From: a virus
Strand: one strand, 5' to 3'
DNA: 64,000 bases
IMG/VR virus record: IMGVR_UViG_3300033996_001022
Location: 1-64,000 of that record
This document shows positions 50,761 to 64,000 of the stretch, in pieces (position 1 is the stretch's first letter; each line of letters starts with the position of its first letter). Position numbers and translations under genes: made by a program. The notes beneath the pieces were generated by a model that saw only the letters and a list, made by a program, of their open reading frames with translations, did no database searches and was not told the DNA's origin.

Positions 50761-53700
50761 TTATGCGTAAAAAATACCCAATAATTGATTCAGAGAGGCG
50801 AATGCTCCTGTTAATTTGAATGTCTGTCCGTTATATACAAATACAATTCCTTCGATTGGTACGATTCTTTTAGCACCACCAATTGCATTTAATCTTTTAA
50901 GTTCTAATTTTAGTTTATCTATCTTCTTAGGGTCTCCACTTGCTTGAACATCCTTTATAGTTTGTTCCAATCGTTTCTTCATATCCCTTAAAGCGGAATC
51001 TGGATTAACTGTTAGTACCGATGCAGTAAATTCCAATACATCTGCACCAACTCCTAAGAAAATATCTTCAAATTTCATTAAGTTATCTTTTGAAATACCC
51101 TTATGGTCTTCCTTATCTATTTTAATAGCCCATGCAAGAGTTTTTTCATCCTTAATTGAGTTCTTATCTATACGGAATCCTTTTTCATTAAACGCCCATC
51201 TCTTAACTAACCCCATTTTAGTGGCGTTATCTAATGTAGTTGGTGTTTTCTTATCTACGAAGTTCTCCCACCATGCTTGATGGTAATCGGCAACACCTGC
51301 AGTATCTCCTAATCCAAATTCTTTTTGTAATTTAGATATCATAGTAAGGTACTTACCTTTCTTAGATGATAGGTCTTGTGATTTTGGTAACTTTAATACT
51401 GGTGGTCCTTGTAGTGTATACTTTGATTGAACATCGGCGTTTACTTGTTTAAGCATTCCACCCAATACTCTACCTGCTTCTGCTGATTCCCCTATTGCAT
51501 CACCATTCTCATCGTACTCCATTGTTCCGTGAAATACTAATAGTGGTTGACCATATGGAATGACGTTGACTGAGGTAGGATATATCACCTCTATGTTCAT
51601 AAAACATGAACCATTCTTAAATACTTTATCTTTTTGTGCTTGGGATAATGATTTTATAGCATTAGATAGGTCTTTCATAGCGAAATTATAGGCATCAGTT
51701 AATTCACCTCTACCCGCAAACTTATCTGCCACTCCGTTAATATCTAACGCACCAGCACCTTTGTTTTTCAAATGTGATTTGTTTCTTGCTGCTACTAATC
51801 TACCATCTATCCAACTTATAGCCAAGGCTTGACCATCAGTTTTCTCTCTAGCAAATTCTAAATTACCATCCAATGCACGATTTACAATATCTTTAAGTTG
51901 TCCAAAGGTTAAATTGATTTCAGTATCAAACGGATGGTTCATATGTCCATATGCACCACCTTCCATTATTAGGGATTCATTTATTGATTCCGTATTTAAA
52001 GATAATAAATCCCAATCTAATTCTTTACTATCAAAATCAATGCCATTACTATAAACATCTTTTACTATTACACCCGCTTCTTTCATTTGGTTTGCTAAAT
52101 CCTTAACAACATTTGGTTTCATATTAATAAGACTTACCGAACCTGCACCATTGTATTCATACCCACTTCCCTCATATTTACGGAAACCTCTTACACTAGT
52201 ACTATATGATTCTACTTTTTTTATACGATTCTTTTTAAAGATAGCATTTATTTCTTTTTTTACAATATTTCTTTCCGCTTCATTTATAGATTCGGTTGTA
52301 AATACAGGAGTAGATGATTTGAAATCAGCTTTTCTCATTACCGTCTTAGCAATCAATCTATCAGCAACTTTAATAAATGCTATATTGATATTTGATACTT
52401 TATCTTTAACTACAAACTCTCTATATTGTTTTAGGAACTCTAAAAATTTCTTTTTGTTTCTAGCCAATCTTTTGAATAATCCTGTTAATTCTGCAGGAGA
52501 TATTTCTTTACCATTTCGCGGGTCGTTTAACCTTTGAAAGAAATGGTCAGTTTCTTTTCCTAAATCAACATCAGTTGGATTCATTTGTGAATCGGCATAT
52601 TTTTCAACCGCATCCATATCGGTTTTTGCCATTTCAACTTTAACTTTTTCTCTTAATACTGCACTTTGAGATGAATAAAAGTATCTATCAATTAATTTAT
52701 TTTCTAATTTTTTAAATCCAATATTTTTATGACAATTATGGAATGGATTTTGTTGTTTCACCAAAAGTATTTGATGTGTTATCTCGTGTAATATTGCCCT
52801 TTCTATATCAGTAACCTTACTCAAATCAAAAGTAATATATTCTGGTATAAATGTTTTAGTATCAAATGTAGTTGCAGCACCTGCACGACCAACTGAACCA
52901 AATTTAATTGCGATGGGTTTTATCTTTAAATCTTTACAAATTTCTTTGTAGTAATTTACAACACTTTCTTTTTTAACTTCGGTTAATGGTTCGTTAGGTA
53001 TATCATCAACTTGTACCGCTATTTCCTCTAAATCATCTTGACCTGAATCTTTTACTTTAAAATTAGCTTTTTTATTATCGTATTTTCTCGGATGTGTTCT
53101 TGCCCAATCTGCGTAATTATTAACTGTTCCATCATAGTAATAATTTTCTTTAATATCACCCTTTTCATCTTTGTTAGAATTAAATGATTCTATTGCAGAA
53201 GCCATTACTTCATTTGGTATTTTTGCACTTTCTAATTTCTTACTTATAATAGCTATGAATTTTAACATATCTGCATCTGATTCTTCCTCTCCTGCAAATA
53301 GTGCTGCTTTACCTGCACCTATTGCTATAGTTTCAACAACTACATGAGGAATAAATTCCACCATTAAGTGTTTACCAAAAGCAGCAGCTCCATGTGCCAA
53401 ACCACCACCAGCTGCACCAAATGCTGCTGCTAATGCAACTTTTTTAGCTACACTAATTAAAGCCTTTTTTTCAGAATCAGAAACTTTACCACCACTAAAA
53501 AAGTTTTTAACACCACTACCGGCTTCTTTAAACAAATGAACTTCATGTTTAGCACCATGTTTAATTGCTTCTAATGCACCTTTAGCTTTGTCTTTAACTG
53601 CTTCTCCAAAACTTCTTCGTTCTGGTGATTCTCCCTTGTGTACTTTTTGTATGAAAAATTGTTTTTCGTCTATACTCCAATTCTTTACACCATCTTTAAT

Positions 53701-56700
53701 TTTTTGAAGAGCCATTGGAGCATTTTTATTTATATCCACCTTTGGAGTATTTTGTGTATCTTTCTTTTTATTTCGTTGTCTACGCAAATCAACGTGTGAA
53801 TTACCAACGGGTGCAATTACTGTATATCCAGCATCTTCTGCTTCTTTAATTTTTCTATCCAATTCCCTTTGACGGAATCCGTTGTATGCTTCTTGGGCTT
53901 TAAATATTTCAGTTTCACCATATCCATCATCATCTCTATAATTTAATTCATAAAGGTCTTTTTGTTGTGCATCGGTTAGGTTATCCCAATCAACATCGCC
54001 ATCAAATTCCGAACTTCCACCTTTTTTAGCCTGGTCGATTAACCATTCCTTTCCTTCATCATCTAAATAATCTTCAGGTGTCATATTTTCGTCAGGACCA
54101 TCTTGTCCATACATATTTGACCACAATGCAGCTTTAGCTTTAGATTTACTTCCACCTAATACATTTGCTACTTCATCAAATACAGGTGATTTATCATCCA
54201 ATACATCTGCGTTTTCATCCCAACTACTTTCTTCCGCATTATCAAAATGTCCTTTTACTGCATTTCTAAATTCATTTTGTTCTCCACCAAATTCAATATT
54301 ACCATTCTTATCTTTACTCATACCACCCTCACCTACAAACATTACTTTTGTATCTTTAGGTAAAGTTTTTATTTGTTCTATTGTTTCTTTATTACTTTTC
54401 TTTCTTTTTCCATGTTCAACTCCAATAATCAATGAACCATTTGGTGTTACATCAATATCTAATTCTTCACCATTTTTTGTTTTTCTATTCTTTAATTTAT
54501 TTGCTACTTCAGCCGTATCAGATGATGATTTTGTAGGTTCTTGTTTTGGTTCTTCTTTAGGTTGTTTAACACTTTTATCGTGTTTAAACATATCCGCACC
54601 TTGTACTGCTTGACCAGTTGGTTTAGTTTCACCACCCTTATCATCTCCCCCAATAGGACTATATTTTCCACTATCATCTTTTTTAAATAGTGGTGCACCT
54701 TCTACATCTTTTTTACTTTTTTCTTTGTATTTACCATACCCAACGTGCACGTATTTATCATCTTCACCATCACTTTCAAATAGTGAATCTAATAAATCAG
54801 AATAATCAGATATTAATTCTGAAATGGAGTCTTTTTGTTTTGCTTTCTTTTTCAATCTCTTTTCTGCCTTTTCAATTTTTTCAACTTCGTGAGTGACATC
54901 AACATCATCAAACCCAAGTGGATATGTAGTCGGTTTATTCAAATTTCTAGCGTTGTTTTTTGTTTTAATTTTAAAGGTTATTTGGTTTTCATCATCAGAT
55001 GCATATATTGCATCTGCTTTTGGAAAATCAGTTTGGGTATATCCTCCTCTAACAAACCAATCATCACTACTATTAACCCCATCATCACCACCTAATACTC
55101 TTGCTTTACCTTTTGGTAGGTATCCACCATCGGGTTGTGAATCATCACCGCCAGAAACCGTTGCTGCCTCTTTAAAAATATTTTGTTTTGGTAAAATTCT
55201 AAATGTAGCTACTTTTTTACCATTAATAGTTGGCATTCCATGTTCGTCTTTACCAATTGTCTTAACTACTGTTTTTTTATTTTTAAATTTACCCATTAAT
55301 ATAGTATCACCAATATTAACATCTAATGTAATATCTTCACTTACCGATTCTCTGATACTTCCGCCATTCTTTTTAATAAAATTTTGAATGTCATTAGTAT
55401 TTTTTCCAACTTCTACTTTTGGATATTTTTGTTTAAGTTTTTCTAATGTTTTTTGATTTTCAGTTTCATCTTCACTCCAATTAGAAGGAATAGCTAAAAT
55501 TTTTTCAATTTTAATTTGTGTAAGAACTACCTCATTCCAATCTGATTCATAATATAATTGATTTGAGTTTAAGTATTTATCTTGAAATTCTTTTTTCTTA
55601 CTCAACATGAATTTTTGTGCAGCATCATAATAATTTCGTATGAATTCATTCTTTTCTGCTGGTGTAAATTCATTTAAAGGGTCTTCTAACCATCTTTTCT
55701 TAAATGGTTTTAATTCTGGTGCGAAATTAAAAACTACATCTCTTTCTCTTCCTAAATCTGCTATTATAGTTCCGGGATTTACCCATCTTCTACCTTGCTT
55801 ATCAGGTGCAGTCCATAGGTCCATTATACTTTGTGCCAATACTACTCCTGATAATAATACAAACACCCCGCCATCGGTATCTACTCCCTTTCCATTTTGT
55901 ACAATCTTTGAGTATTTATCAATTTTATTAAATGTAGAAATTGATTTTTTAGTTCCTTCTAATGCTGCTACTTTTGGTAAATTTTCAATTGTAGTTACGT
56001 GTAATGAAGTTGTTTTTATTGGGTCAACCAATTGTTTAACAATATTAAGTGAAAGTGGTAATTGGCCTTGCATACAACGACTGAATGTATCGCCTTCCCA
56101 TTTAACTTCATTTAATTGATAATCATCTGGACCATTATTTCCCCTAACTCCTGATATTCCTTCGCTCATAGTTTTAAGTTTAAGAGTAATCAGTTTGAAT
56201 ATTTTTTCATCAAACTTTGGATATGCTTTTAAGAATCCAGCTCTTTGTTGTTCTTCATCACCCTTACTTAACCAATTTCGTACATTAGTACCTGATATTG
56301 GGTTTGATTGTGATGGGGATACATACACATAACCTTTTTCTTTATATCCTTGTTCTATTTTACCTTTATATTTCTCAAAATACTTTCCACCCAATCTCAT
56401 CTCATCTTTTTCACCAACAACACTTATATAACCAGTTGTAGTTTCATCAAAGTTTTTTAAGATTTCAGTAGGTGCATATGGATTCTTAATCTCAACTATT
56501 TTGTTTGATGGAATACCAAACATTTTAGTCATGATTATTTTCTTTTCCTTAAAATTAAATGGAGATTGTCTATTATCGGTTTTATTAGATGTTCCAATAA
56601 ACACTTTATCCTTACCAAACTTTTTACAAAGATTTTGATAAGTTGCATAGTGTCCTTTATGGAAAGGTTGGAATCTGCCTGAATATACTACAACAAAGTT

Positions 56701-56760
56701 GTGTAATTCGGTATCTTCTAATAAAATTTGGTTGACAAGATATTGACTTAGTTCATTCAT
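50761..56760 (-). CDS. 1999-residue multidomain protein: nucleotidylyltransferase + metalloprotease + KxDG ligase-type domain
   Basis: Visible parts, in order. (a) 20-190: an NMNAT/cytidylyltransferase-like domain with YSGRFQPFHKGHY (HxGH-type motif, 34-37) and ISGTNVR (155-161). (b) About 240-470: a mixed domain with LHVTTIENLPKVAALEGT and KKSISTF, weakly like ADP-ribosyltransferases. (c) IRESVSED (469-476), then a small barrel. (d) 620-1000: acidic, charged modules with VMFVGEGGM and IAPVGNSHVDL. (e) 1105-1155: a hydrophobic Ala/Gly-rich segment that could insert in a membrane. (f) 1265-1375: a metalloprotease-like domain with HEITH (1325-1329). (g) TESINEAE (1489-1496) and TESINESL (1590-1597) flank a ~100-residue module. 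(h) 1600-1999: an adenylyltransferase of the DNA/RNA ligase superfamily with KTDG (Lys1640), EGIVF (1970-1974) and FKLTG. No SD; late motif 21 nt upstream. Packaging in the head with processing by gp21 is my inference. Confidence 0.85.
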   Translation of the reverse strand: MNELSQYLVNQILLEDTELHNFVVVYSGRFQPFHKGHYATYQNLCKKFGKDKVFIGTSNKTDNRQSPFNFKEKKIIMTKMFGIPSNKIVEIKNPYAPTEILKNFDETTTGYISVVGEKDEMRLGGKYFEKYKGKIEQGYKEKGYVYVSPSQSNPISGTNVRNWLSKGDEEQQRAGFLKAYPKFDEKIFKLITLKLKTMSEGISGVRGNNGPDDYQLNEVKWEGDTFSRCMQGQLPLSLNIVKQLVDPIKTTSLHVTTIENLPKVAALEGTKKSISTFNKIDKYSKIVQNGKGVDTDGGVFVLLSGVVLAQSIMDLWTAPDKQGRRWVNPGTIIADLGRERDVVFNFAPELKPFKKRWLEDPLNEFTPAEKNEFIRNYYDAAQKFMLSKKKEFQDKYLNSNQLYYESDWNEVVLTQIKIEKILAIPSNWSEDETENQKTLEKLKQKYPKVEVGKNTNDIQNFIKKNGGSIRESVSEDITLDVNIGDTILMGKFKNKKTVVKTIGKDEHGMPTINGKKVATFRILPKQNIFKEAATVSGGDDSQPDGGYLPKGKARVLGGDDGVNSSDDWFVRGGYTQTDFPKADAIYASDDENQITFKIKTKNNARNLNKPTTYPLGFDDVDVTHEVEKIEKAEKRLKKKAKQKDSISELISDYSDLLDSLFESDGEDDKYVHVGYGKYKEKSKKDVEGAPLFKKDDSGKYSPIGGDDKGGETKPTGQAVQGADMFKHDKSVKQPKEEPKQEPTKSSSDTAEVANKLKNRKTKNGEELDIDVTPNGSLIIGVEHGKRKKSNKETIEQIKTLPKDTKVMFVGEGGMSKDKNGNIEFGGEQNEFRNAVKGHFDNAEESSWDENADVLDDKSPVFDEVANVLGGSKSKAKAALWSNMYGQDGPDENMTPEDYLDDEGKEWLIDQAKKGGSSEFDGDVDWDNLTDAQQKDLYELNYRDDDGYGETEIFKAQEAYNGFRQRELDRKIKEAEDAGYTVIAPVGNSHVDLRRQRNKKKDTQNTPKVDINKNAPMALQKIKDGVKNWSIDEKQFFIQKVHKGESPERRSFGEAVKDKAKGALEAIKHGAKHEVHLFKEAGSGVKNFFSGGKVSDSEKKALISVAKKVALAAAFGAAGGGLAHGAAAFGKHLMVEFIPHVVVETIAIGAGKAALFAGEEESDADMLKFIAIISKKLESAKIPNEVMASAIESFNSNKDEKGDIKENYYYDGTVNNYADWARTHPRKYDNKKANFKVKDSGQDDLEEIAVQVDDIPNEPLTEVKKESVVNYYKEICKDLKIKPIAIKFGSVGRAGAATTFDTKTFIPEYITFDLSKVTDIERAILHEITHQILLVKQQNPFHNCHKNIGFKKLENKLIDRYFYSSQSAVLREKVKVEMAKTDMDAVEKYADSQMNPTDVDLGKETDHFFQRLNDPRNGKEISPAELTGLFKRLARNKKKFLEFLKQYREFVVKDKVSNINIAFIKVADRLIAKTVMRKADFKSSTPVFTTESINEAERNIVKKEINAIFKKNRIKKVESYSTSVRGFRKYEGSGYEYNGAGSVSLINMKPNVVKDLANQMKEAGVIVKDVYSNGIDFDSKELDWDLLSLNTESINESLIMEGGAYGHMNHPFDTEINLTFGQLKDIVNRALDGNLEFAREKTDGQALAISWIDGRLVAARNKSHLKNKGAGALDINGVADKFAGRGELTDAYNFAMKDLSNAIKSLSQAQKDKVFKNGSCFMNIEVIYPTSVNVIPYGQPLLVFHGTMEYDENGDAIGESAEAGRVLGGMLKQVNADVQSKYTLQGPPVLKLPKSQDLSSKKGKYLTMISKLQKEFGLGDTAGVADYHQAWWENFVDKKTPTTLDNATKMGLVKRWAFNEKGFRIDKNSIKDEKTLAWAIKIDKEDHKGISKDNLMKFEDIFLGVGADVLEFTASVLTVNPDSALRDMKKRLEQTIKDVQASGDPKKIDKLKLELKRLNAIGGAKRIVPIEGIVFVYNGQTFKLTGAFASLNQLLGIFYA

Positions 56761-56940: not shown

Positions 56941-57651
56941 TTAATTTTGAGTTTTAGTTTCTTTCCAATATGTTCTAAATACATGTCTATTCCAATTTTT
57001 AATTTCAGTAACCGAATGTTGTATACCCATTTTATTAAAATACGAATCAAATACAATTAATTGATTTTTTTTGGGTCTATGTGTATAAATTATATTATTT
57101 TTAATAACTTCTGGACTTTCAAATCCGGTTATATCACCATAAAATACAATTTCACCACCCTCGTCACCATTTTTCATTTCATTTAAATACAATGTAGTTG
57201 TACAAATTCGTAGATTGGGTTCTGAACTAGTATCAGAATGGATATTCATTATATGACCAGGAAGATATGTGAGTACATCCTGATGTTCTGCTTTAAAATT
57301 ATTAATATGTTCGGTATATATACTTTCTAAATAAACACTTATGTGTTTGTTAGTAGTATTTGATAAATTATGGTCACATGGACTTTCAATATCTTTTCTA
57401 TTAATTCTTTTACTACCAATATTTTTAAAATTATTCCATATATATTCTTCATCTTCATTTAAATTGGTAATCAATTTATTAAATGACATATTATTATATG
57501 GATTTTGATTATCAACTAATCCAAATCGTACAACAAAATTTTTTTCTTCAATATGTTTTTGACAATCTTCTAATAATAAATCTACGATTGATTCATCTAA
57601 TGCGTTTTCGAATATAAAAACTTTATTATTTATATTTTTGATAAGTTTCAT
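56941..57651 (-). CDS. 2-oxoglutarate/Fe(II)-dependent oxygenase (prolyl-4-hydroxylase-like)
   Basis: The product is 236 residues. The metal triad is visible: His and Asp in PGHIMNIHSDTSSEPNLRIC (HxD), the distal His in GIQHSV, and Arg in NWNRHVFRTYW for 2-oxoglutarate. GGEIVFYGD and PKKNQLIVFDSY are typical strands of the double-stranded beta-helix fold. Phages carry such enzymes to hydroxylate proteins, sugars or bases. Here the sugar operon suggests a sugar or glycolipid target, but proteins are possible. It follows the first glycosyltransferase with no gap. Confidence 0.85.
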   Translation of the reverse strand: MKLIKNINNKVFIFENALDESIVDLLLEDCQKHIEEKNFVVRFGLVDNQNPYNNMSFNKLITNLNEDEEYIWNNFKNIGSKRINRKDIESPCDHNLSNTTNKHISVYLESIYTEHINNFKAEHQDVLTYLPGHIMNIHSDTSSEPNLRICTTTLYLNEMKNGDEGGEIVFYGDITGFESPEVIKNNIIYTHRPKKNQLIVFDSYFNKMGIQHSVTEIKNWNRHVFRTYWKETKTQN

Positions 57652-59097
57652 TTAAAGTAAATCTACTAATTCTCCATTTATTATTTTATTTAAATTCTTT
57701 ACATATATATCTGGAACCAATTTATCATTAAATTTCATTAAATGTGTTCTATTATGTTCTAATATATATGCCATTTTTGAAATCATAATATCCCATTCTT
57801 CATTTGATACTAAAATTAATTTTTTTATAATTTCGTATACAGCTATAATTCTATCACTATTGTTTTCTATATCATCATAACTTTCATCCCAAAAATCAGA
57901 GAAAGTTTTAAATCCCAGTTTTTTTAATTTTTTTAAAATATGGGGTCTTCCCAACATAACAAATGGATGTAAATGTGCTATTGGTTTTAAAGTTTTTTCG
58001 GATATATAATTTCCTGCTTCATAGAAAAGAGTTTCGGGCACAATACTGAAATAGGTTTCTTCATATGGTTTTTTAGTTTCAAACGCAAATCCCCATACTG
58101 ATTCAATATCATCATAATCAACTATTTGTTTTTTTATTTTAGTTAATCCGTGAAATCCAGTACTCATTTTTACACGAGTTTGGTAATCAGTTAAATATGG
58201 TTTATCATCATACCCACCACCACTTACTAAATCCAATCCAGCATCTTGTGTGTACAATAATTTCATATCAAATGATGATAATGTACTATCTAATAATTTA
58301 TCATTTTGTAATAGGGAAAGAATGATTAATCGGTGTGGTCTAAGTCTCCTATTTAGCATCAAACACTTCTTTTTTCTATTCTTTATTTTAAAATAATCCT
58401 TTGTTTTACTAATTGAATTTTTATTAGTACTACCATTAAATGATAGTTCAGTATTTCCTCTCATTAAATCAACTGTTTCTTTTCCTTTTGCAAAGAATGG
58501 CCAGGGATAGCAAGTCGTTTTTAATTTGAATTTTGGATTTTTATCTTTTACATAATATTCAGTATACAATTCAGTTGTATTAACCGCCGAAGTAATAAAA
58601 ATTACTTTAGATGGACATATATTATGGGTTTCACACGCAGTATGTATGTTGTAAAAAATATCTGGTTTTATATCACCCTCACTACTATAATCAAAAATTA
58701 AATAAAAATTTTTAGCTTTTAAATATTGTTTAGCTCTTTCAGATATAAAATCAAAAACATGCTGATTCTGATGATATGTAAAATCTTGACCCGTAGCAAC
58801 TAATACATTTCCGAATGGAGTAATAGTGTAAAAATAATTATCAGTTGGATTGCCAACTATATTAGTTTCTTCATCATATCTTAAATCAAAAATATGAATA
58901 TCAGTAATATTAAAAGGGCCGATGTTTAGATTACAATCATATACTGCTATTTGTAAATATTTTTTATTAAATTCATCAATAAAAATATTATCAATATAAA
59001 AATTACAATCCCACATATCGGATGTGTATTTATAATTTACACCATTTGGTATAAACCCACTTGGTCCAATAAAATCAAAAACTCTATTAATTTGCAT
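57652..59097 (-). CDS. Glycosyltransferase-like protein 1 (paralogue of 61587-62744)
   Basis: The product is 481 residues. The N-terminal half is unassigned. MLNRRLRPHRLIILSLL near 245-261 resembles the start of an exostosin-like sugar-binding half. The C-terminal signature is NYISEKTLKPIAHLHPFVML then GFKTFSDFWDESYDDIEN. It contains the conserved 'EK..KPI' and 'GF.TF..FWDESYD' of a phage and giant-virus glycosyltransferase group, by memory. The donor and acceptor are unknown. A 50-bp stretch (57863-57912) is identical to one in its paralogue. It overlaps the gene upstream by 11 nt. Confidence 0.78.
   Translation of the reverse strand: MQINRVFDFIGPSGFIPNGVNYKYTSDMWDCNFYIDNIFIDEFNKKYLQIAVYDCNLNIGPFNITDIHIFDLRYDEETNIVGNPTDNYFYTITPFGNVLVATGQDFTYHQNQHVFDFISERAKQYLKAKNFYLIFDYSSEGDIKPDIFYNIHTACETHNICPSKVIFITSAVNTTELYTEYYVKDKNPKFKLKTTCYPWPFFAKGKETVDLMRGNTELSFNGSTNKNSISKTKDYFKIKNRKKKCLMLNRRLRPHRLIILSLLQNDKLLDSTLSSFDMKLLYTQDAGLDLVSGGGYDDKPYLTDYQTRVKMSTGFHGLTKIKKQIVDYDDIESVWGFAFETKKPYEETYFSIVPETLFYEAGNYISEKTLKPIAHLHPFVMLGRPHILKKLKKLGFKTFSDFWDESYDDIENNSDRIIAVYEIIKKLILVSNEEWDIMISKMAYILEHNRTHLMKFNDKLVPDIYVKNLNKIINGELVDLL
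57863..57912 (-). repeat. 50-bp stretch identical between glycosyltransferase paralogues, copy 1
   Basis: Identical to 61771-61820, including silent positions. It encodes FKTFSDFWDESYDDIEN. The flanking sequence diverges at once. Confidence 0.9.
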
Positions 59098-59635
59098 AGT
59101 ATAACTCTGGGTATTCTGCTAACACATGAATACCAATATTTTCAGTTGCGTATTTATAGGATAATTCAACATCTTGCCAAGTCTTTAAATCATGAAATTC
59201 TATATTAGGACACATCGATTTAAATTCGTCTATATAATTTCCTTTATGTTGATGACCAGGGTCTAATGGTTTATCCGAACCTTTACCTACCCTAATTAGG
59301 ATATGTGGATTCCATTGACCGTTTGACATTTTCTTAATTTTATCTAAATGGTTTACCAATTGGTTTCCCGCACATATTACAAAATCCCAACGTGGATAAA
59401 ATGAAACTACTTTGTGTCCTGTCATTGCCAACCCTAAACTCATTCCCATTTGGGTTTCTTCCATAACAGGAACTTCAATCATTCGTTCTTTTGGTAATCC
59501 ATCAATCGTTTTTGACATTGGGTTTCCATAATAAACAATTTGTTGACCAATTAGAATTGTGCTTTCATCATCCATTAATGTTTTCATTGCAGTTGTTAAT
59601 GCATCAACATATGGTGTAAATTGAGGTGTACTCAT
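59087..59635 (-). CDS. TPP enzyme E1-beta-like subunit (transketolase pyrimidine-binding domain only)
   Basis: The product is 182 residues. RMIEVPVMEETQMGMSLGLA holds the E1-beta cofactor-binding Glu pattern. VVSFYPRWDFVICAGNQLVN and HILIRVGKGS then PGHQHKGNY continue the pyrimidine-binding fold. It stops before the transketolase C-terminal domain that E1-beta proteins normally carry (about 320 residues). Its partner is the E1-alpha-like protein at 62729-63367. Together they would make the two-site TPP cavity. The operon suggests two- or three-carbon transfer onto a nucleotide sugar. Confidence 0.8.
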   Translation of the reverse strand: MSTPQFTPYVDALTTAMKTLMDDESTILIGQQIVYYGNPMSKTIDGLPKERMIEVPVMEETQMGMSLGLAMTGHKVVSFYPRWDFVICAGNQLVNHLDKIKKMSNGQWNPHILIRVGKGSDKPLDPGHQHKGNYIDEFKSMCPNIEFHDLKTWQDVELSYKYATENIGIHVLAEYPELYYAN

Positions 59636-60627
59636 TATGGTTTTGAATTTGGATTAAATTGATTTTTATTTTCTTTATACCATTTAAGAGCATCAGTTAA
59701 TCCACTTTTTAAATCATACTTTGGTTTCCAACCTAATGATTTTAATTTAGTGTTATCAAGTAATCTAACGGGTATCATTGGTGCTTTATTATTTACATAC
59801 TCAATTGGGTTAGTATTACCTTCAATCTCTTTAATCGTATCTAAAACTTCATTTACAGTATATCCCTCACCATATGATACATTGTATACATCATGAGTGT
59901 GAACGTTTTCTGCTACACATATAAATCCACTAACCATATCGTCCACATGAATTACATCTCTAACTTCACTACCATCACCCCATACTGGTATTGGGTTTAG
60001 GTTATCCGCCACCTTTCTAATATTTGCAGGGGTAACGTGACATTTTTCATAATCAAATTTATCATTCGGCCCAAATGCATTTGAAGGTCTGATAATAATA
60101 CATTGCATTGGATTGTGAATTTGGTTTGAAAAGAAATCACAAAGAGTTTCACAATAACGTTTCATCCAACCAACTGCTTTGTATACCGGTACAATTGATG
60201 GAGTTTGAATTTCCATGTCTTCCGTACAAGGTACATCTCCCATATCAGGATATGTTGTGTTTGATGATATAAAGATAAATTTCTTTACTGAATTAATCCA
60301 AGCCTGTTCCATCAGATTAACGTTCATTTCAATATTTGGAGTAACGTGTAATAGGGGATTAAATTTAGTGTCTAATGCGTTTGATGTATTTGCTGCACAA
60401 TGGAATATGACATCAACTCCAATTGTAAGAGTTTTACACATACCATCATTTCGTAAATTTGCTTTGACAAATTCTATATTTTTAGAACCTTCGAAATCAT
60501 TTCTTAATGGTCTCGTGTTTGCAGTTGCTCTTAAATTTGTGTAACCTTGTTCATATAAACTTTTTAATAATCTAGAACCAATAAATCCACTTGCGCCAGT
60601 TACTAAAATTTTGTCTGTTTTTTTCAT
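59635..60627 (-). CDS. NAD-dependent epimerase/dehydratase 1
   Basis: This 330-residue extended SDR protein has ILVTGASGFIGSRLLKSLYE (GxxGxxG) at the N-terminus, NLRNDGM and VDVIFHCAANTS. The FISSNTTYPDMG strand supplies the Ser/Thr. The segment expected to carry the Tyr-x-x-x-Lys pair reads YKAVGWMKRYCE, where the canonical position is Val rather than Tyr. The substrate-binding part has IIRPSNAFGPND and WGDGSEVRDVIHVDDM. It probably alters a nucleotide-linked hexose. It overlaps the E1-beta gene by one base. Confidence 0.87.
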   Translation of the reverse strand: MKKTDKILVTGASGFIGSRLLKSLYEQGYTNLRATANTRPLRNDFEGSKNIEFVKANLRNDGMCKTLTIGVDVIFHCAANTSNALDTKFNPLLHVTPNIEMNVNLMEQAWINSVKKFIFISSNTTYPDMGDVPCTEDMEIQTPSIVPVYKAVGWMKRYCETLCDFFSNQIHNPMQCIIIRPSNAFGPNDKFDYEKCHVTPANIRKVADNLNPIPVWGDGSEVRDVIHVDDMVSGFICVAENVHTHDVYNVSYGEGYTVNEVLDTIKEIEGNTNPIEYVNNKAPMIPVRLLDNTKLKSLGWKPKYDLKSGLTDALKWYKENKNQFNPNSKP

Positions 60628-60631
60628 ATTT

Positions 60632-61597
60632 TTATTTTTTGTATTCGTTTAAATAATAATCAATCGTATGTCTTAATCCTGTCTTTAAAGATATTTTTTG
60701 TTTAATTCCAAAAGATTCTGCTCTTTCAGTACTCATCAATCTTTTTTCATCACCATTTGGTTTTGTTGGGTCCCAGTTTATTTCAACTTTTTCACCATAC
60801 ATCTCTTCGTATATTTCTACAAGAGTTTCTGCAAGTTCTTTAATTGTTACACCAGTTCCACTACCTAAATTTATTGGTTGTGTTAGTTTTTGTTCGTATG
60901 CCTGAATAATTCCATCAGCAACATCTCCCGCGTAGATAAAATCTCTAATCGGAGACCCATCTCCCCAACATACTAATGGATGTTCTTTTTCTCCAAATAA
61001 ACGTTTAATTAGGGATGCAATGACAGTAGATTCTGGACTAAAGTTATCATGTCTGCCATAAATGTTTGCAGGTCTTACAATCGATACTTTATTCCAATTG
61101 TACGATACTGAATATACTTCTGCTTGAAGTTCTCCAAGTCTTTTAGCCCATCCGGCGTATTTATCTTTTTCTGATGGAAATGTTTTCCAAACATCATCCT
61201 CATAAAATACTTCCGCCGGCTGATATACTCCAACTGTTGATGTGTAAACATACCATTCTACGTCTTCTAAGCGTGCAGCTTCCATCATATTGGTATTAAA
61301 CTGCAACATTGGTACAAAATAATCTGCGGGTTGTTCTGCTGCTCGTTTTGGAGAACCCTTTACGCCTGCAATATGGAAAATTATATCCTGCCCTTCAACT
61401 ACTCTTTTACAATTTTTGAATTCACGTAAATCAGCTTTAATAAACTGATAGTTATCCACGTTGTATTTTTCTAATTGATTTTCTGGAGTGTGAATATCCA
61501 CTGCAGTTACAAATGCTCCTCTTTGAATACATTTATCAACCATATAATTACCAACTAATCCGTTGGCACCTGTTATCAAAACCTTTTTACCATTCAT
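60632..61597 (-). CDS. NAD-dependent epimerase/dehydratase 2
   Basis: This 321-residue SDR protein has VLITGANGLVGNYMVDKCIQ (GxxGxxG), then ADLREF and DIIFHIAGVKGSP. VYTSTVGVYQP supplies the Ser/Thr. The expected Tyr-x-x-x-Lys reads YAGWAKRLGE, with Tyr one residue too far from Lys. VRPANIYGRHDNFSPES and CWGDGSPIRDFIYAGDVADG complete the nucleotide-sugar site. It resembles GDP-sugar epimerase/reductases of the fucose-synthase type. It overlaps the second glycosyltransferase gene by 11 nt. Confidence 0.87.
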   Translation of the reverse strand: MNGKKVLITGANGLVGNYMVDKCIQRGAFVTAVDIHTPENQLEKYNVDNYQFIKADLREFKNCKRVVEGQDIIFHIAGVKGSPKRAAEQPADYFVPMLQFNTNMMEAARLEDVEWYVYTSTVGVYQPAEVFYEDDVWKTFPSEKDKYAGWAKRLGELQAEVYSVSYNWNKVSIVRPANIYGRHDNFSPESTVIASLIKRLFGEKEHPLVCWGDGSPIRDFIYAGDVADGIIQAYEQKLTQPINLGSGTGVTIKELAETLVEIYEEMYGEKVEINWDPTKPNGDEKRLMSTERAESFGIKQKISLKTGLRHTIDYYLNEYKK

Positions 61598-62744
61598 TTT
61601 CTATGTTTTTTAATATTTTATCTAAACTATTGATTTCTAATTTGTTCCAAATTTCTCTATTATATATACATATATCTTTTAAATTTTTGTATAATTCATT
61701 TAACTCAATAATACTCTTTTCATTCAATTTTCTAACTAATTGTAACAATGTAAAAAATCTTTCTTGTGAATTTTCTATATCATCATAACTTTCATCCCAA
61801 AAATCAGAGAAAGTTTTAAAACCATAGGTTTTTAAATGTTTTAAATACCCATATCCGGCAAAAACTATGAATGGTTGATAATTTAATATTGGTTTTAATA
61901 TTTTTTCGGAAACAAATAATTCATTTTGTTCAAATGATGATTCTGTTACCAAATTTATACATGAATCTAAAAATAATTCTTTTTTAAAGGTATCATTTAC
62001 TCTAAAATTGCATTTATCTAATATTTTATGGGTATCTAACTCTATTGGTAATTTACTATTAAAAAAATCAATATCTATTTGTTCTTTTTTATCATTATCA
62101 TGCTCAGTACCATAAATTCTAGCATAACCTTCAGTTTTTAATAAAAAAGTAAAATATGAATCAGAGTAATTTCCAGTAAGATATTCGTTTAATAAAGATA
62201 TTCTATGTTCTTTGTCTAATGCCCTATTAAAACAAATAAATTTTTTATGTCTATACGTTTCTAATTCATTTAATTGTATTTCTTTACTTATATATCCTAA
62301 ATCATTATTAGTATCTCTAAAATATTGATTCCTATTCCATGTAGACTCTTCTAAAAAGAAATCAAATGATAGGATACCTTCCAATCGTCTATTACTATCA
62401 ATTAAATGGTATTTATTACTTGATAATTTTGTTTTTATGTATTCAAATCCTTCGATAAAGCTACTTATATTGCATGGGTCGGGTATCGAAGTAAATAATA
62501 ATTTTACATCATTGTTTTTTATAAAATCATATACACTATCTGGTATGTTTAATAGGGTTTGAAATTTTTGATTACCCTCAATCAATAGTATATTTCTATA
62601 ACCTATCTTTATTTCAGAATTTATAGTGTAAGAATAATTTTTACTTTGAATATAATTAAAAATTGGGCCTTGCATAGCATAACTTTCATCTCCATTATAC
62701 TCATATGTATTCTTTAAGAATACAAAATTTAAAATACTACCCAT
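61587..62744 (-). CDS. Glycosyltransferase-like protein 2 (paralogue of 57652-59097)
   Basis: The product is 385 residues. The C-terminus has LFVSEKILKPILNYQPFIVF then GFKTFSDFWDESYDDIEN, matching protein 1. The N-terminal half differs and has KKFICFNRALDKEHRISLLN near the middle. No membrane anchor is present. It shares a 50-bp identical stretch with its paralogue but otherwise differs strongly. It overlaps both neighbours. It probably adds a sugar to the same surface glycan. Confidence 0.78.
   Translation of the reverse strand: MGSILNFVFLKNTYEYNGDESYAMQGPIFNYIQSKNYSYTINSEIKIGYRNILLIEGNQKFQTLLNIPDSVYDFIKNNDVKLLFTSIPDPCNISSFIEGFEYIKTKLSSNKYHLIDSNRRLEGILSFDFFLEESTWNRNQYFRDTNNDLGYISKEIQLNELETYRHKKFICFNRALDKEHRISLLNEYLTGNYSDSYFTFLLKTEGYARIYGTEHDNDKKEQIDIDFFNSKLPIELDTHKILDKCNFRVNDTFKKELFLDSCINLVTESSFEQNELFVSEKILKPILNYQPFIVFAGYGYLKHLKTYGFKTFSDFWDESYDDIENSQERFFTLLQLVRKLNEKSIIELNELYKNLKDICIYNREIWNKLEINSLDKILKNIENEW
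61771..61820 (-). repeat. 50-bp stretch identical between glycosyltransferase paralogues, copy 2
   Basis: Identical to 57863-57912. Confidence 0.9.
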
Positions 62745-63367
62745 TTTCCTGTTCCATAATGTGGATATTTTGATTTATATTTATAATAGATAACATCTTC
62801 TGGTATTTCTCTCTGAATTTCTCCCCAAGTGTGTGATGTCGGTGTATTTGTAGAAACTTCATTATCTTCAACTACAAAATAAAGAGGTAAGTTGTGATTT
62901 CTAGCGTATTTATGCACCTCATAAAAAATTCCAGTCTCAAAAGTCATATCACCAATGAAACACCACACCTTTTTATCTTCACCTTTTAGTTTAATTGATT
63001 TAGCAACACCCAAAGCAATAGGTAAAATACCAGTTACAATAGCTGAAGAGTAAAAATTACACTTTTTATTTACAATTGTGATACTTCGGCCATCTAAAAT
63101 TTCATCCTTTAACCAAGATTCATCAATTCCATGTAAAAGTGCATGATAATGAGACCTCCAAGTAGAAAATACCCAATCATCTACCCCCACTTTTTTGAAT
63201 ATTTCTATTAATTCATCCTCATTTCCATTTGATAAATGTATTGGGCCTCTAATATCTCCTGCTTCCCAATGTTTAATAATATCATCTTCAAATTGAATGA
63301 GTTGTTCTTTAGTAAGATTACTATCTACCCATCGGTCTTCATGATAATTTAAATTTTTAATTTCCAT
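62729..63367 (-). CDS. TPP enzyme E1-alpha-like subunit
   Basis: The product is 212 residues. The TPP diphosphate site reads CFIGDMTFETGIFYEVHKYA, with GD-M in place of GDG, and ends 27 residues on at VVEDNEVSTNTP with the metal-ligand Asn. VFSTWRSHYHALLHGIDESW and AIVTGILPIALGVAKSIKLK match the E1-alpha core. It is much shorter than full E1-alpha (about 350-400 residues). It overlaps the second glycosyltransferase gene by 16 nt and the RmlC-like gene by 11 nt. It should pair with the protein at 59087-59635. Confidence 0.82.
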   Translation of the reverse strand: MEIKNLNYHEDRWVDSNLTKEQLIQFEDDIIKHWEAGDIRGPIHLSNGNEDELIEIFKKVGVDDWVFSTWRSHYHALLHGIDESWLKDEILDGRSITIVNKKCNFYSSAIVTGILPIALGVAKSIKLKGEDKKVWCFIGDMTFETGIFYEVHKYARNHNLPLYFVVEDNEVSTNTPTSHTWGEIQREIPEDVIYYKYKSKYPHYGTGKWVVF

Positions 63368-63941
63368 TTTTATCTCTATTTGAAAGTATTGGTTGTGCTA
63401 CAGGCCATTCAACATTAAATCGTTTATCGTTAAACACTATTGTTTTTTGTTTATTCTCATCGTTATATTCACCTTCATATGCCATTTTGTAAAAAAAGAT
63501 AGAATTATCCTCCATCACATAATGGCCATTAGCAAACATTGGTGGAATTAAGACCTGTGTTCCGGTTTCGGGTGAGATTATAAAAGATTCCCATTTACCA
63601 TAGGTTGGTGAGTTTGGTCTAACATCCATTACAACCAAATATATACGACCATGCAGACAACTTACTAATTTCCAAGTCTTTTCATCATAGTGCATTCCTC
63701 TCAATACTCCTACCTTTGATTTTGAGAACCTATCATGCTTAAATTCTAACCCATTGTTGCGTTCAGCGGCGGGCAACAAACGGTCATAATACTCTGAGTG
63801 ATAAGTTGTAGAGATTGAACCTCTATATTCATAATATGTGGATGGTTGTACGATTTTTATCTCTGGTAATACCAATCCATTGTAATAGTGAAAGTCATTC
63901 CACTCTCGTTCTTTGTAAAATATACTACGTCCTATTGCCAT
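63357..63941 (-). CDS. dTDP-4-dehydrorhamnose 3,5-epimerase-like protein (RmlC family)
   Basis: The product is 194 residues, the usual RmlC length. RFSKSKVGVLRGMHYDEKTW contains the catalytic His. LHGRIYLVVMDVRPNSPTYG and KWESFIISPETGTQVLIPPM are the cupin strands. FANGHYVMEDN replaces the more usual F-A-H-G-F. It probably epimerises a nucleotide-linked 4-keto sugar. The substrate may differ from dTDP-rhamnose because no RmlA, RmlB or RmlD lies in the window. No SD. Confidence 0.88.
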   Translation of the reverse strand: MAIGRSIFYKEREWNDFHYYNGLVLPEIKIVQPSTYYEYRGSISTTYHSEYYDRLLPAAERNNGLEFKHDRFSKSKVGVLRGMHYDEKTWKLVSCLHGRIYLVVMDVRPNSPTYGKWESFIISPETGTQVLIPPMFANGHYVMEDNSIFFYKMAYEGEYNDENKQKTIVFNDKRFNVEWPVAQPILSNRDKNGN

Positions 63942-64000
63942 AACTTAAAGGGAATCCATTTCTATACTTTGAAGACAAGTCTTGGATTAAAATTTTATAT
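63925..64000 (-). CDS. Possible C-terminal end of an upstream sugar-operon gene (partial)
   Basis: One frame is open from the window edge to a TAG at 63925-63927 that overlaps the start of the RmlC-like gene by 17 nt. It encodes 24 residues (ending YRNGFPLSYGNRT). The overlap length is like others in this operon. The fragment is too short to identify. Confidence 0.35.
   Translation of the reverse strand, partial: YKILIQDLSSKYRNGFPLSYGNRT

Follow-up and report, generated by a model that had tools for sequence, protein, structure and literature searches.

The window, a 64,000-nucleotide stretch (positions 1 to 64,000) of IMG/VR virus record IMGVR_UViG_3300033996_001022, encodes two small proteins, alpha and beta. 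On sequence grounds alpha is the PP half and beta the PYR half of a single thiamine diphosphate (ThDP) enzyme that has no transketolase C-terminal domain. The putative enzyme is of a stripped-down type, made of two small proteins and carried by many environmental phages including the source virus. We hold, with moderate confidence, that the pair is a minimal ThDP enzyme which attaches an acyl branch at the C4 position of a GDP-4-keto-heptose and thereby replaces C4 reduction; its substrate, donor and reaction, and the destination of the sugar, are what we infer. The genes lie in a cassette that extends beyond the window end:

56941..57651, minus strand: 2OG-Fe(II) oxygenase-like protein at the cassette end (2OG-FeII_Oxy_3, 3.1e-10)
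57652..59097, minus strand: second glycosyltransferase-like protein, in one BLASTP cluster with the protein of 61587-62744
59087..59635, minus strand: beta, 182 aa, the PYR half, with E59 at the position of the catalytic Glu; the transketolase C-terminal domain is absent
59635..60627, minus strand: S3, GDP-fucose-synthase-like SDR without the catalytic Tyr (Epimerase, 2.6e-42)
60632..61597, minus strand: S2, GDP-fucose-synthase-like SDR without the catalytic Tyr (Epimerase, 1.3e-38)
61587..62744, minus strand: glycosyltransferase of predicted GT-B fold, 385 aa, model pLDDT 94.3
62729..63367, minus strand: alpha, 212 aa, the PP half (for ThDP diphosphate and Mg), with motif GDM...EDN
63357..63941, minus strand: RmlC-like cupin, probable GDP-4-keto-heptose 3- or 3,5-epimerase (dTDP_sugar_isom, 3.7e-40)
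63925..64000, continuing to 64896 of the virus record, minus strand: S1, Cj1427-like SDR, probable GDP-heptose C4-dehydrogenase (closest PDB entry 6vo6, 9.6e-105)

An earlier note on this DNA had described two open reading frames with the two halves of a ThDP site, separated by two epimerases and a glycosyltransferase. Both are present at the coordinates listed above, and two NAD-epimerase-type SDRs and one predicted GT-B protein lie between them. Alpha matches Pfam E1_dh above the cut-off (2.8e-13) and TPP_enzyme_C weakly (2.9e-5), and beta matches Transket_pyr below Pfam's cut-off (8.9e-5). The PYR domain is a homologue of E1 beta (family profile against 1ni4_B, 6.8e-15; predicted fold against 1w85_B, Z 23.8). 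As the note had also said, the C-terminal domain of E1 beta is missing: beta covers approximately residues 1-176 of E1-beta chains that are 324-341 residues long, and no Pfam match to Transketolase_C was found in its 182 residues. The second part of E1 alpha is missing as well. Transketolase proper, with its three-domain layout PP-PYR-TKC, is excluded by the absence of TKC, and the YerE family by its single-chain TPP_enzyme_N, _M and _C layout, since the window proteins match E1_dh and Transket_pyr and neither TPP_enzyme_N nor TPP_enzyme_M. Sulfopyruvate decarboxylase is an enzyme of two small ThDP subunits; its curated families are absent among the matches listed for the window pair.

Among curated models the best for the pair are those of pyruvate dehydrogenase (PDH) E1 alpha and beta, as would be expected if it acted as the E1 of a host 2-oxo acid dehydrogenase, passing acyl groups to the host lipoyl-E2 and so altering central metabolism. 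The scores, however, are 82.9 of 393.85 and 48.1 of 321 bits, far under the cut-offs, and these scores together with the absent C-terminal domain exclude PDH/BCKDH E1 proper. The missing second part of E1 alpha and the position of the pair, which lies among sugar genes in every listed locus, also argue against such a role, and we consider it very improbable.

The residues expected to bind ThDP are near-invariant across 92 alpha relatives, 81 beta relatives and 22 further pairs, and this conservation holds in two sets retrieved via different genes. The earlier note had pointed to GDM in place of GDG in alpha, and GDM is indeed found in 83 of the 92 aligned relatives, so that by its distribution in the alignment it is a family trait. 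Loss of the metal-ligand Asp or Asn, which the note had named in advance as evidence against its reading, was looked for in the relatives: Asp is kept in 92/92 and Asn in 91/92. E59 and H130 of beta are each present in all 81 relatives. In full-length E1-like beta proteins the column of E59 holds Asp (10 of 10), which we count against our proposal. The altered motif and the shortening of both halves might suggest two decayed, functionless remnants, but the near-invariance of the ThDP residues speaks against decay, as does JanthE, an active YerE-like enzyme in which CDG replaces GDG (excerpts of PMC12247030), and we regard an inactive pair as exceedingly improbable.

A single phage family of 405 aa, phrog_34187, is matched by alpha over residues 5-198 (1.2e-50) and by beta over residues 238-374 (3.2e-20). 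In cyanophages S-SM2 and P-TIM68 this family is a single chain, and the two halves are also fused into one chain in some bacteria. The cyanophage proteins, annotated as 'transketolase central region-containing protein', thus belong to the same family with its two halves in one chain; they differ from the window pair in being fused, in having the GDG motif and in their neighbours. The structural check for a ThDP site that the note had proposed was run on a naturally fused relative, and the high-confidence prediction is a transketolase PP+PYR core with the two domains placed as in transketolase (in the structure alignment, A3, the two window proteins and two fusions were joined by 48 of the 52 representatives for alpha and 41 of the 43 for beta). 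ThDP and Mg would sit at the interface of the PP domain of alpha and the PYR domain of beta.

At least 572 of the 600 candidate stretches listed from viral contigs encode relatives, a number far beyond chance. A scan of cellular contigs gave at least 8 loci of the family; in whole-genome sampling it was present in 2 of 398 genomes of the phylum of the SAR116 genome on which that sample was centred (itself included) and in 1 of 286 of the phylum of the Parcubacteria genome, the one being the central genome itself. In cells HddA/HddC-like genes adjoin the pair, and cyanophage, Desulfobacterota and archaeal family members have neighbours of other kinds.

The window neighbours point to GDP-heptose: the nearest relatives of the RmlC-like gene are GDP-4-keto-heptose epimerases of C. 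jejuni (best PDB entry 8db5, GDP-D-glycero-4-keto-D-lyxo-heptose-3,5-epimerase, 7.7e-48) and S1 is 55% identical to 6vo6, which we take to be Cj1427, a GDP-heptose C4-dehydrogenase. S1 has YxxxK in 60/60 sequences, and an S1-like gene, whose product would form a 4-keto sugar nucleotide, accompanies the pair in 59 of the 91 loci of the first set. S2 and S3 both have GDP-fucose synthases among their best PDB matches; position K-4 is P, A or G in 61/61 S2 sequences and V in 49/49 S3 sequences (all three counts are restricted to sequences with 40% or more identity to those of the window; alignment A4 comprises 55 of 82 representatives and the window protein). The route proposed below does not account for these two Tyr-less SDRs, which we count against it. 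The 385-aa glycosyltransferase has no convincing Pfam match; its model is closest to GDP-fucosyltransferases (best VIA Z 12.1, 283 residues at 5.0 Å, alpha1,3-fucosyltransferase 2nzx; best Foldseek value 2.7e-4). The second glycosyltransferase-like protein matched none of the PDB sequences. Three families of GDP-heptose supply genes were each found in only 2 of the 27 virus records searched, a part of all loci, so most phages checked are without them.

In other phages the pair adjoins genes for an HddA-like heptose kinase, a ColD/RfbH-like 3-dehydratase and a Cj1427-like dehydrogenase. The DegT protein (a PLP enzyme) of this second operon type has His for the PLP Lys, with an HH motif in 57/57 sequences, which is presumably a sign of a ColD/RfbH-type 3-dehydratase; its best NCBIfam match is RfbH (3.9e-55, below that model's cut-off). 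The slot of the pair is otherwise occupied by a split transketolase (13/48 loci), an E1-like pair or an acetolactate-synthase-like enzyme (3 loci), so that ThDP enzymes of four architectures share one slot in 48/48 loci. The split transketolases, the adjoining heptose kinase-like genes and one locus (L131) in which a transketolase-type pair stands beside GmhA-, HddC- and HddA-like genes would also fit a transketolase-like enzyme that forms sedoheptulose-7-phosphate or another ketose phosphate and feeds the heptose pathway upstream, leaving the nucleotide sugar unmodified. The window pair, however, scores as E1 (1.9e-23) over transketolase (3.7e-6), and the acetolactate-synthase-like and E1-like enzymes that occupy the same slot use 2-oxo acids. 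Nor would a supply enzyme be expected to exclude a C4-reductase (below), and we think this upstream role quite unlikely.

ThDP enzyme and C4-reductase are near-exclusive: the reductase is found in 0/49 loci with a ThDP enzyme and in 9/10 loci without one (59 of 80 loci, those with HddA present and at least 2 genes upstream, in a set found through S1). Outside this set there is one exception, locus L199, where the pair coexists with a Tyr-intact reductase. In a wider table of 207 S1 loci (from 286, after collapse of identical S1 proteins), which leans to ThDP because part of it (L006-L085) was found via alpha itself, any Tyr-intact SDR of the set is present in 11 of 175 ThDP loci, and 22 of the 207 are without a ThDP enzyme as well as a reductase. 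Both enzymes are likewise absent from six loci with S1 and RmlC. We count L199, the 11 ThDP loci with a Tyr-intact SDR and the loci with neither enzyme against our proposal, as we do the scarce supply genes and the differing neighbours elsewhere in the family. The same cassette might instead carry another ThDP reaction, such as sugar cleavage or chain change, or branching at a different carbon or of a different nucleotide sugar. Family branches do differ in neighbourhood and supply genes are mostly absent from the phages, but the tight link to Cj1427-like and heptose-epimerase-like genes and the near-exclusion of the C4-reductase make such a reaction unlikely, if worth serious consideration.

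Branching at C4 would thus be one step of a phage-borne route on GDP-heptose. After C4 oxidation by S1, the carbons flanking the ketone would be altered by the RmlC-like epimerase, or by the PLP 3-dehydratase in other phages, and the ThDP enzyme would put an activated acyl group on the C4 ketone, with pyruvate-derived acetaldehyde as the likeliest unit. The product would be a C4-branched tertiary alcohol, so that C4 reduction would be unnecessary, and one of the cassette's glycosyltransferases would then place the branched sugar. The earlier note had suggested transfer of a two-carbon unit to a keto sugar, with the resulting branched or unusual sugar borne by host envelope or virion. Context backs the addition of a unit to such a keto sugar, through the C4-dehydrogenase-like and keto-heptose-epimerase-like genes, the 3-dehydratase-like gene of other phages and the near-exclusion of the C4-reductase; the two-carbon donor and the envelope or virion destination we likewise infer.

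The pathway of YerE (yersiniose A) includes a 3-deoxygenation step, as the second phage operon type would. It also shares with the phage cassettes the logic of a 4-keto sugar nucleotide and ThDP-dependent branching at C4 (excerpts of PMC12247030). YerE differs in being a single chain of acetolactate-synthase type that acts on a CDP-hexose, although a YerE-type relative occupies the phage slot in the 3 loci mentioned. Among sugar-branching pairs of the alpha-keto acid dehydrogenase 2 type from antibiotic clusters, transfer of a two-carbon unit onto a keto sugar has been proposed for AviB1/AviB2 and Pau11/Pau12 and shown with ketone analogues for KbDH-alpha/beta (accessible parts of PMC4425429, PMC4753412 and PMC12247030). 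These resemble the phage pair as E1-like alpha and beta subunits within a sugar pathway, but Pau11 and Pau12 have 325 and 345 aa according to the same parts, against 212 and 182 aa in the phage pair, which is without the C-terminal domain, and their setting is dTDP-deoxysugar rather than GDP-heptose-like. The split-gene transketolase ChTK, an active alpha2-beta2 enzyme, likewise has PP on one chain and PYR on the other (accessible part of PMC7661550), but it retains the C-terminal domain and uses ketose donors, whereas the phage pair is E1-like in sequence and without that domain. The C. jejuni GDP-heptose pathway (Cj1427, Cj1430, Cj1428) has in common with the phage the C4-dehydrogenase-like and C3/C5-epimerase-like genes, and has a C4-reductase where the phage has the ThDP enzyme.

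Split ThDP sugar-branching enzymes are thus a known kind, and what is new is the neighbours indicating GDP-heptose. In the open-access literature searched, we recognised no account of the gene pair in phages or of a ThDP enzyme acting on GDP-heptose, and C4-branched GDP-heptoses (nine or more carbons) were not met in the literature searched. That such cassettes are unnamed may be partly because a large ocean survey left out auxiliary metabolic genes on contigs with lipopolysaccharide islands (PMC11360552, in the part available).

We put forward tentatively, at slightly less than an even chance, that an aquatic phage cassette makes C4-branched GDP-heptoses, that its branching slot takes any of four ThDP architectures, one of them a new, mainly phage, minimal two-domain type, and that a swap of enzyme alters the branch, and with it the glycan of surface or virion. 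A testable rule follows, that the C4-reductase is usually absent where the ThDP enzyme stands. If the proposal is true, it would explain a widespread phage gene pair whose family is filed as 'unknown function' (phrog_34187), and phages would offer a large and so far untapped supply of branched higher sugars and of compact ThDP carboligases for ketones.

Alpha (212 aa) matches Pfam's E1_dh at 2.8e-13, and beta (182 aa) matches the transketolase pyrimidine-binding domain at 8.9e-5, which is below Pfam's cut-off. A profile built from 93 sequences of the family aligns with human pyruvate dehydrogenase E1 in each of its chains (1ni4_A, 1.4e-19; 1ni4_B, 6.8e-15). The alignment spans the PP region and PYR domain and leaves out the C-terminal domain. 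The same PHROG, of unassigned function, takes in both proteins; they are fused into one chain in the cyanophages S-SM2 and P-TIM68, on a Prochlorococcus contig (L091) and on a Parcubacteria contig (L093). The structure predicted for the fused L093 protein (93 alignment rows; pLDDT 92.6, pTM 0.93) superposes through residues 3-400 on transketolase PP+PYR (Z 19.9-21.1, 339-363 residues, 3.0-4.5 Å; VIA list), and its beta part overlays residues 1-176 of E1 beta (Z 23.8, 1.6 Å; VIA list); alpha and beta thus very probably share a single thiamine diphosphate (ThDP) site, as modelled in this fused relative only. Beta accompanies alpha in 80 of 91 loci, and whole-record reading of the other 11 finds it in 4 more; in the last 7, no more than about 5.5 kb of contig remains downstream of alpha, the side on which most relatives have beta. 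A longer ORF of 585-591 aa ends in the beta half in six loci (L052, L054, L055, L058, L068, L070).

The site residues are strongly conserved: the metal Asp, H44 and H203 in 92/92 alpha sequences, the metal Asn in 91/92, E59 and H130 in 81/81 beta sequences, and all six in 22/22 further pairs found via another gene. GDM occurs in 83 of 92 alpha sequences and all 22 of the further set, with GDG or GDA in the fused forms and several cellular members. In split transketolase, as described in an excerpt of PMC7661550, the metal ligands are Asp, Asn and one further residue, and the Gly following Asp touches the diphosphate; GDM therefore need not disable the site. The pair makes up a ThDP enzyme of minimal build that is conserved, mostly viral and most likely a sugar-branching carboligase.

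The genes form a minus-strand cassette in the 69,549-base virus record, transcribed toward lower coordinates, with overlaps of a few bases between several of them, in the manner of translationally coupled genes:

Two LamG-like proteins (named by eye), minus, first in the gene run, flanking the next gene
67021-68466 of the record (L002:12022-13467, beyond the window), twitch-domain radical SAM protein, NF033640 match 1e-106
Between these genes and S1, minus, glycosyltransferase-like protein
63925-64896, minus, S1 (SDR)
63357-63941, minus, RmlC-like protein
62729-63367, minus, alpha
61587-62744, minus, glycosyltransferase
60632-61597, minus, S2
59635-60627, minus, S3
59087-59635, minus, beta
57652-59097, minus, further glycosyltransferase-like protein
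56941-57651, minus, 2OG-Fe(II) oxygenase-like protein

Major head, portal, terminase and tail-fibre families elsewhere in the window identify a tailed phage. The twitch-domain radical SAM gene belongs to the same run, and its cluster is represented in 52 loci, this record among them. A 1999-aa, likely multidomain ORF (50761-56760), nucleotidyltransferase-like by eye at its N-terminus, adjoins the terminase gene.

Several neighbours point to a GDP-heptose. S1 matches PDB 6vo6, which we take to be Cj1427, at 9.6e-105 (55% identity, 165/299). For the RmlC-like protein the best match is to C. jejuni GDP-4-keto-heptose 3- or 3,5-epimerases (8db5, 7.7e-48); the rhamnose-type epimerase 1dzr matches more weakly (1e-23). 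The glycosyltransferase model is GT-B, its nearest relatives, at a moderate match, being GDP-fucose-using enzymes, and in SAR116 (L086) and Omnitrophota (L087) cellular loci alpha and beta stand beside S1-like, HddA-like (GHMP kinase) and HddC-like (nucleotidyltransferase) genes. Cj1427 catalyses C4 oxidation of GDP-D-glycero-manno-heptose, according to an excerpt of PMC10680097. Against this reading, three families of GDP-heptose supply genes were each found in only 2 of the 27 virus records searched, so that the sugar nucleotide would be host-supplied, or another one used. Next to the cyanophage fusions lie genes for a Zn-dehydrogenase and for a PfkB/HldE-like kinase, whereas radical SAM genes accompany several cellular pairs; the acceptor may thus differ between family branches. 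In L089, L090 and L092 the pair has radical SAM neighbours too, and the 735-kb phage LR756501 (L005:7400-9618) has the order beta-radical SAM-alpha with GDG.

When S1 replaced alpha as the query against virus contigs, 80 loci were recovered. Many of them show a second type of operon, made up of B12-radical-SAM protein, ThDP enzyme, HddA-like kinase, DegT-family PLP enzyme and S1. Because His replaces the PLP lysine of the DegT enzyme in 57/57 and its best curated match is RfbH (score below cut-off), it is probably a 3-dehydratase. A ThDP enzyme lies between the B12-radical-SAM gene and downstream HddA in all 48 loci holding both, as the minimal pair (22), split transketolase (13), a full-length E1-like pair (10) or an acetolactate-synthase-like protein (3). 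The B12-binding radical SAM protein immediately upstream of this slot (L104:5208-6713 and equivalents) may C-methylate the same sugar. The L131:4081-8814 run (HddA-like, transketolase-type PP and PYR-only (165 aa), HddC-like, GmhA-like, S1) holds another two-domain, transketolase-type pair without C-terminal domain.

ThDP enzymes and the GDP-fucose-synthase-like C4-reductase nearly exclude each other. Among 59 S1-found loci where HddA is present with two or more upstream genes, the reductase occurs in 0/49 with a ThDP enzyme versus 9/10 without (Fisher p 8e-10, related loci counted as independent); the tenth (L169) has neither. The 80 loci form 40 clusters at 95% S1 identity, one including both minimal pair and split transketolase. 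Two more scans, overlapping the first set, gave 160 loci, 148 with S1: 126 minimal pair, 4 E1-like, 2 acetolactate-synthase-like and 16 without ThDP enzyme, 8 of which have the reductase. Combined, 207 distinct S1 proteins divide into 174 with ThDP enzyme only, 10 with reductase only, 22 with neither and 1 with both; if every Tyr-intact SDR of the set is counted, a looser measure, 11/175 ThDP loci have one. Weighing against the branching reading, S1 and RmlC occur in six loci with neither enzyme in the stretch examined. The sole locus with both, L199:662-10933, carries the minimal pair, a 3-dehydratase-like gene, Tyr-less SDRs and the Tyr-intact reductase, perhaps two sugar routes within one cluster. 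The SDRs S2 and S3, GDP-fucose-synthase-like and related to the reductase, never have the catalytic Tyr (61 and 49 sequences), in keeping with an unneeded C4 reduction. They are kept in most window-type cassettes despite this loss; position K-4 is P/A/G in 61/61 S2 and V in 49/49 S3 sequences.

The sequences themselves show the pairing, the domains, the conservation, the neighbours and the near-exclusion, from which we infer the substrate, donor and product of the ThDP reaction and the destination of the sugar. C4 oxidation would give a ketone, neighbouring carbons would be altered by epimerisation or 3-dehydration, and the ThDP enzyme would consume the ketone by acyl anion addition, most likely from pyruvate, leaving nothing for a C4-reductase. 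The same logic appears, in excerpts of PMC4425429, PMC4753412 and PMC12247030, in yersiniose (YerE) and in the avilamycin and paulomycin branching pairs of E1 type.
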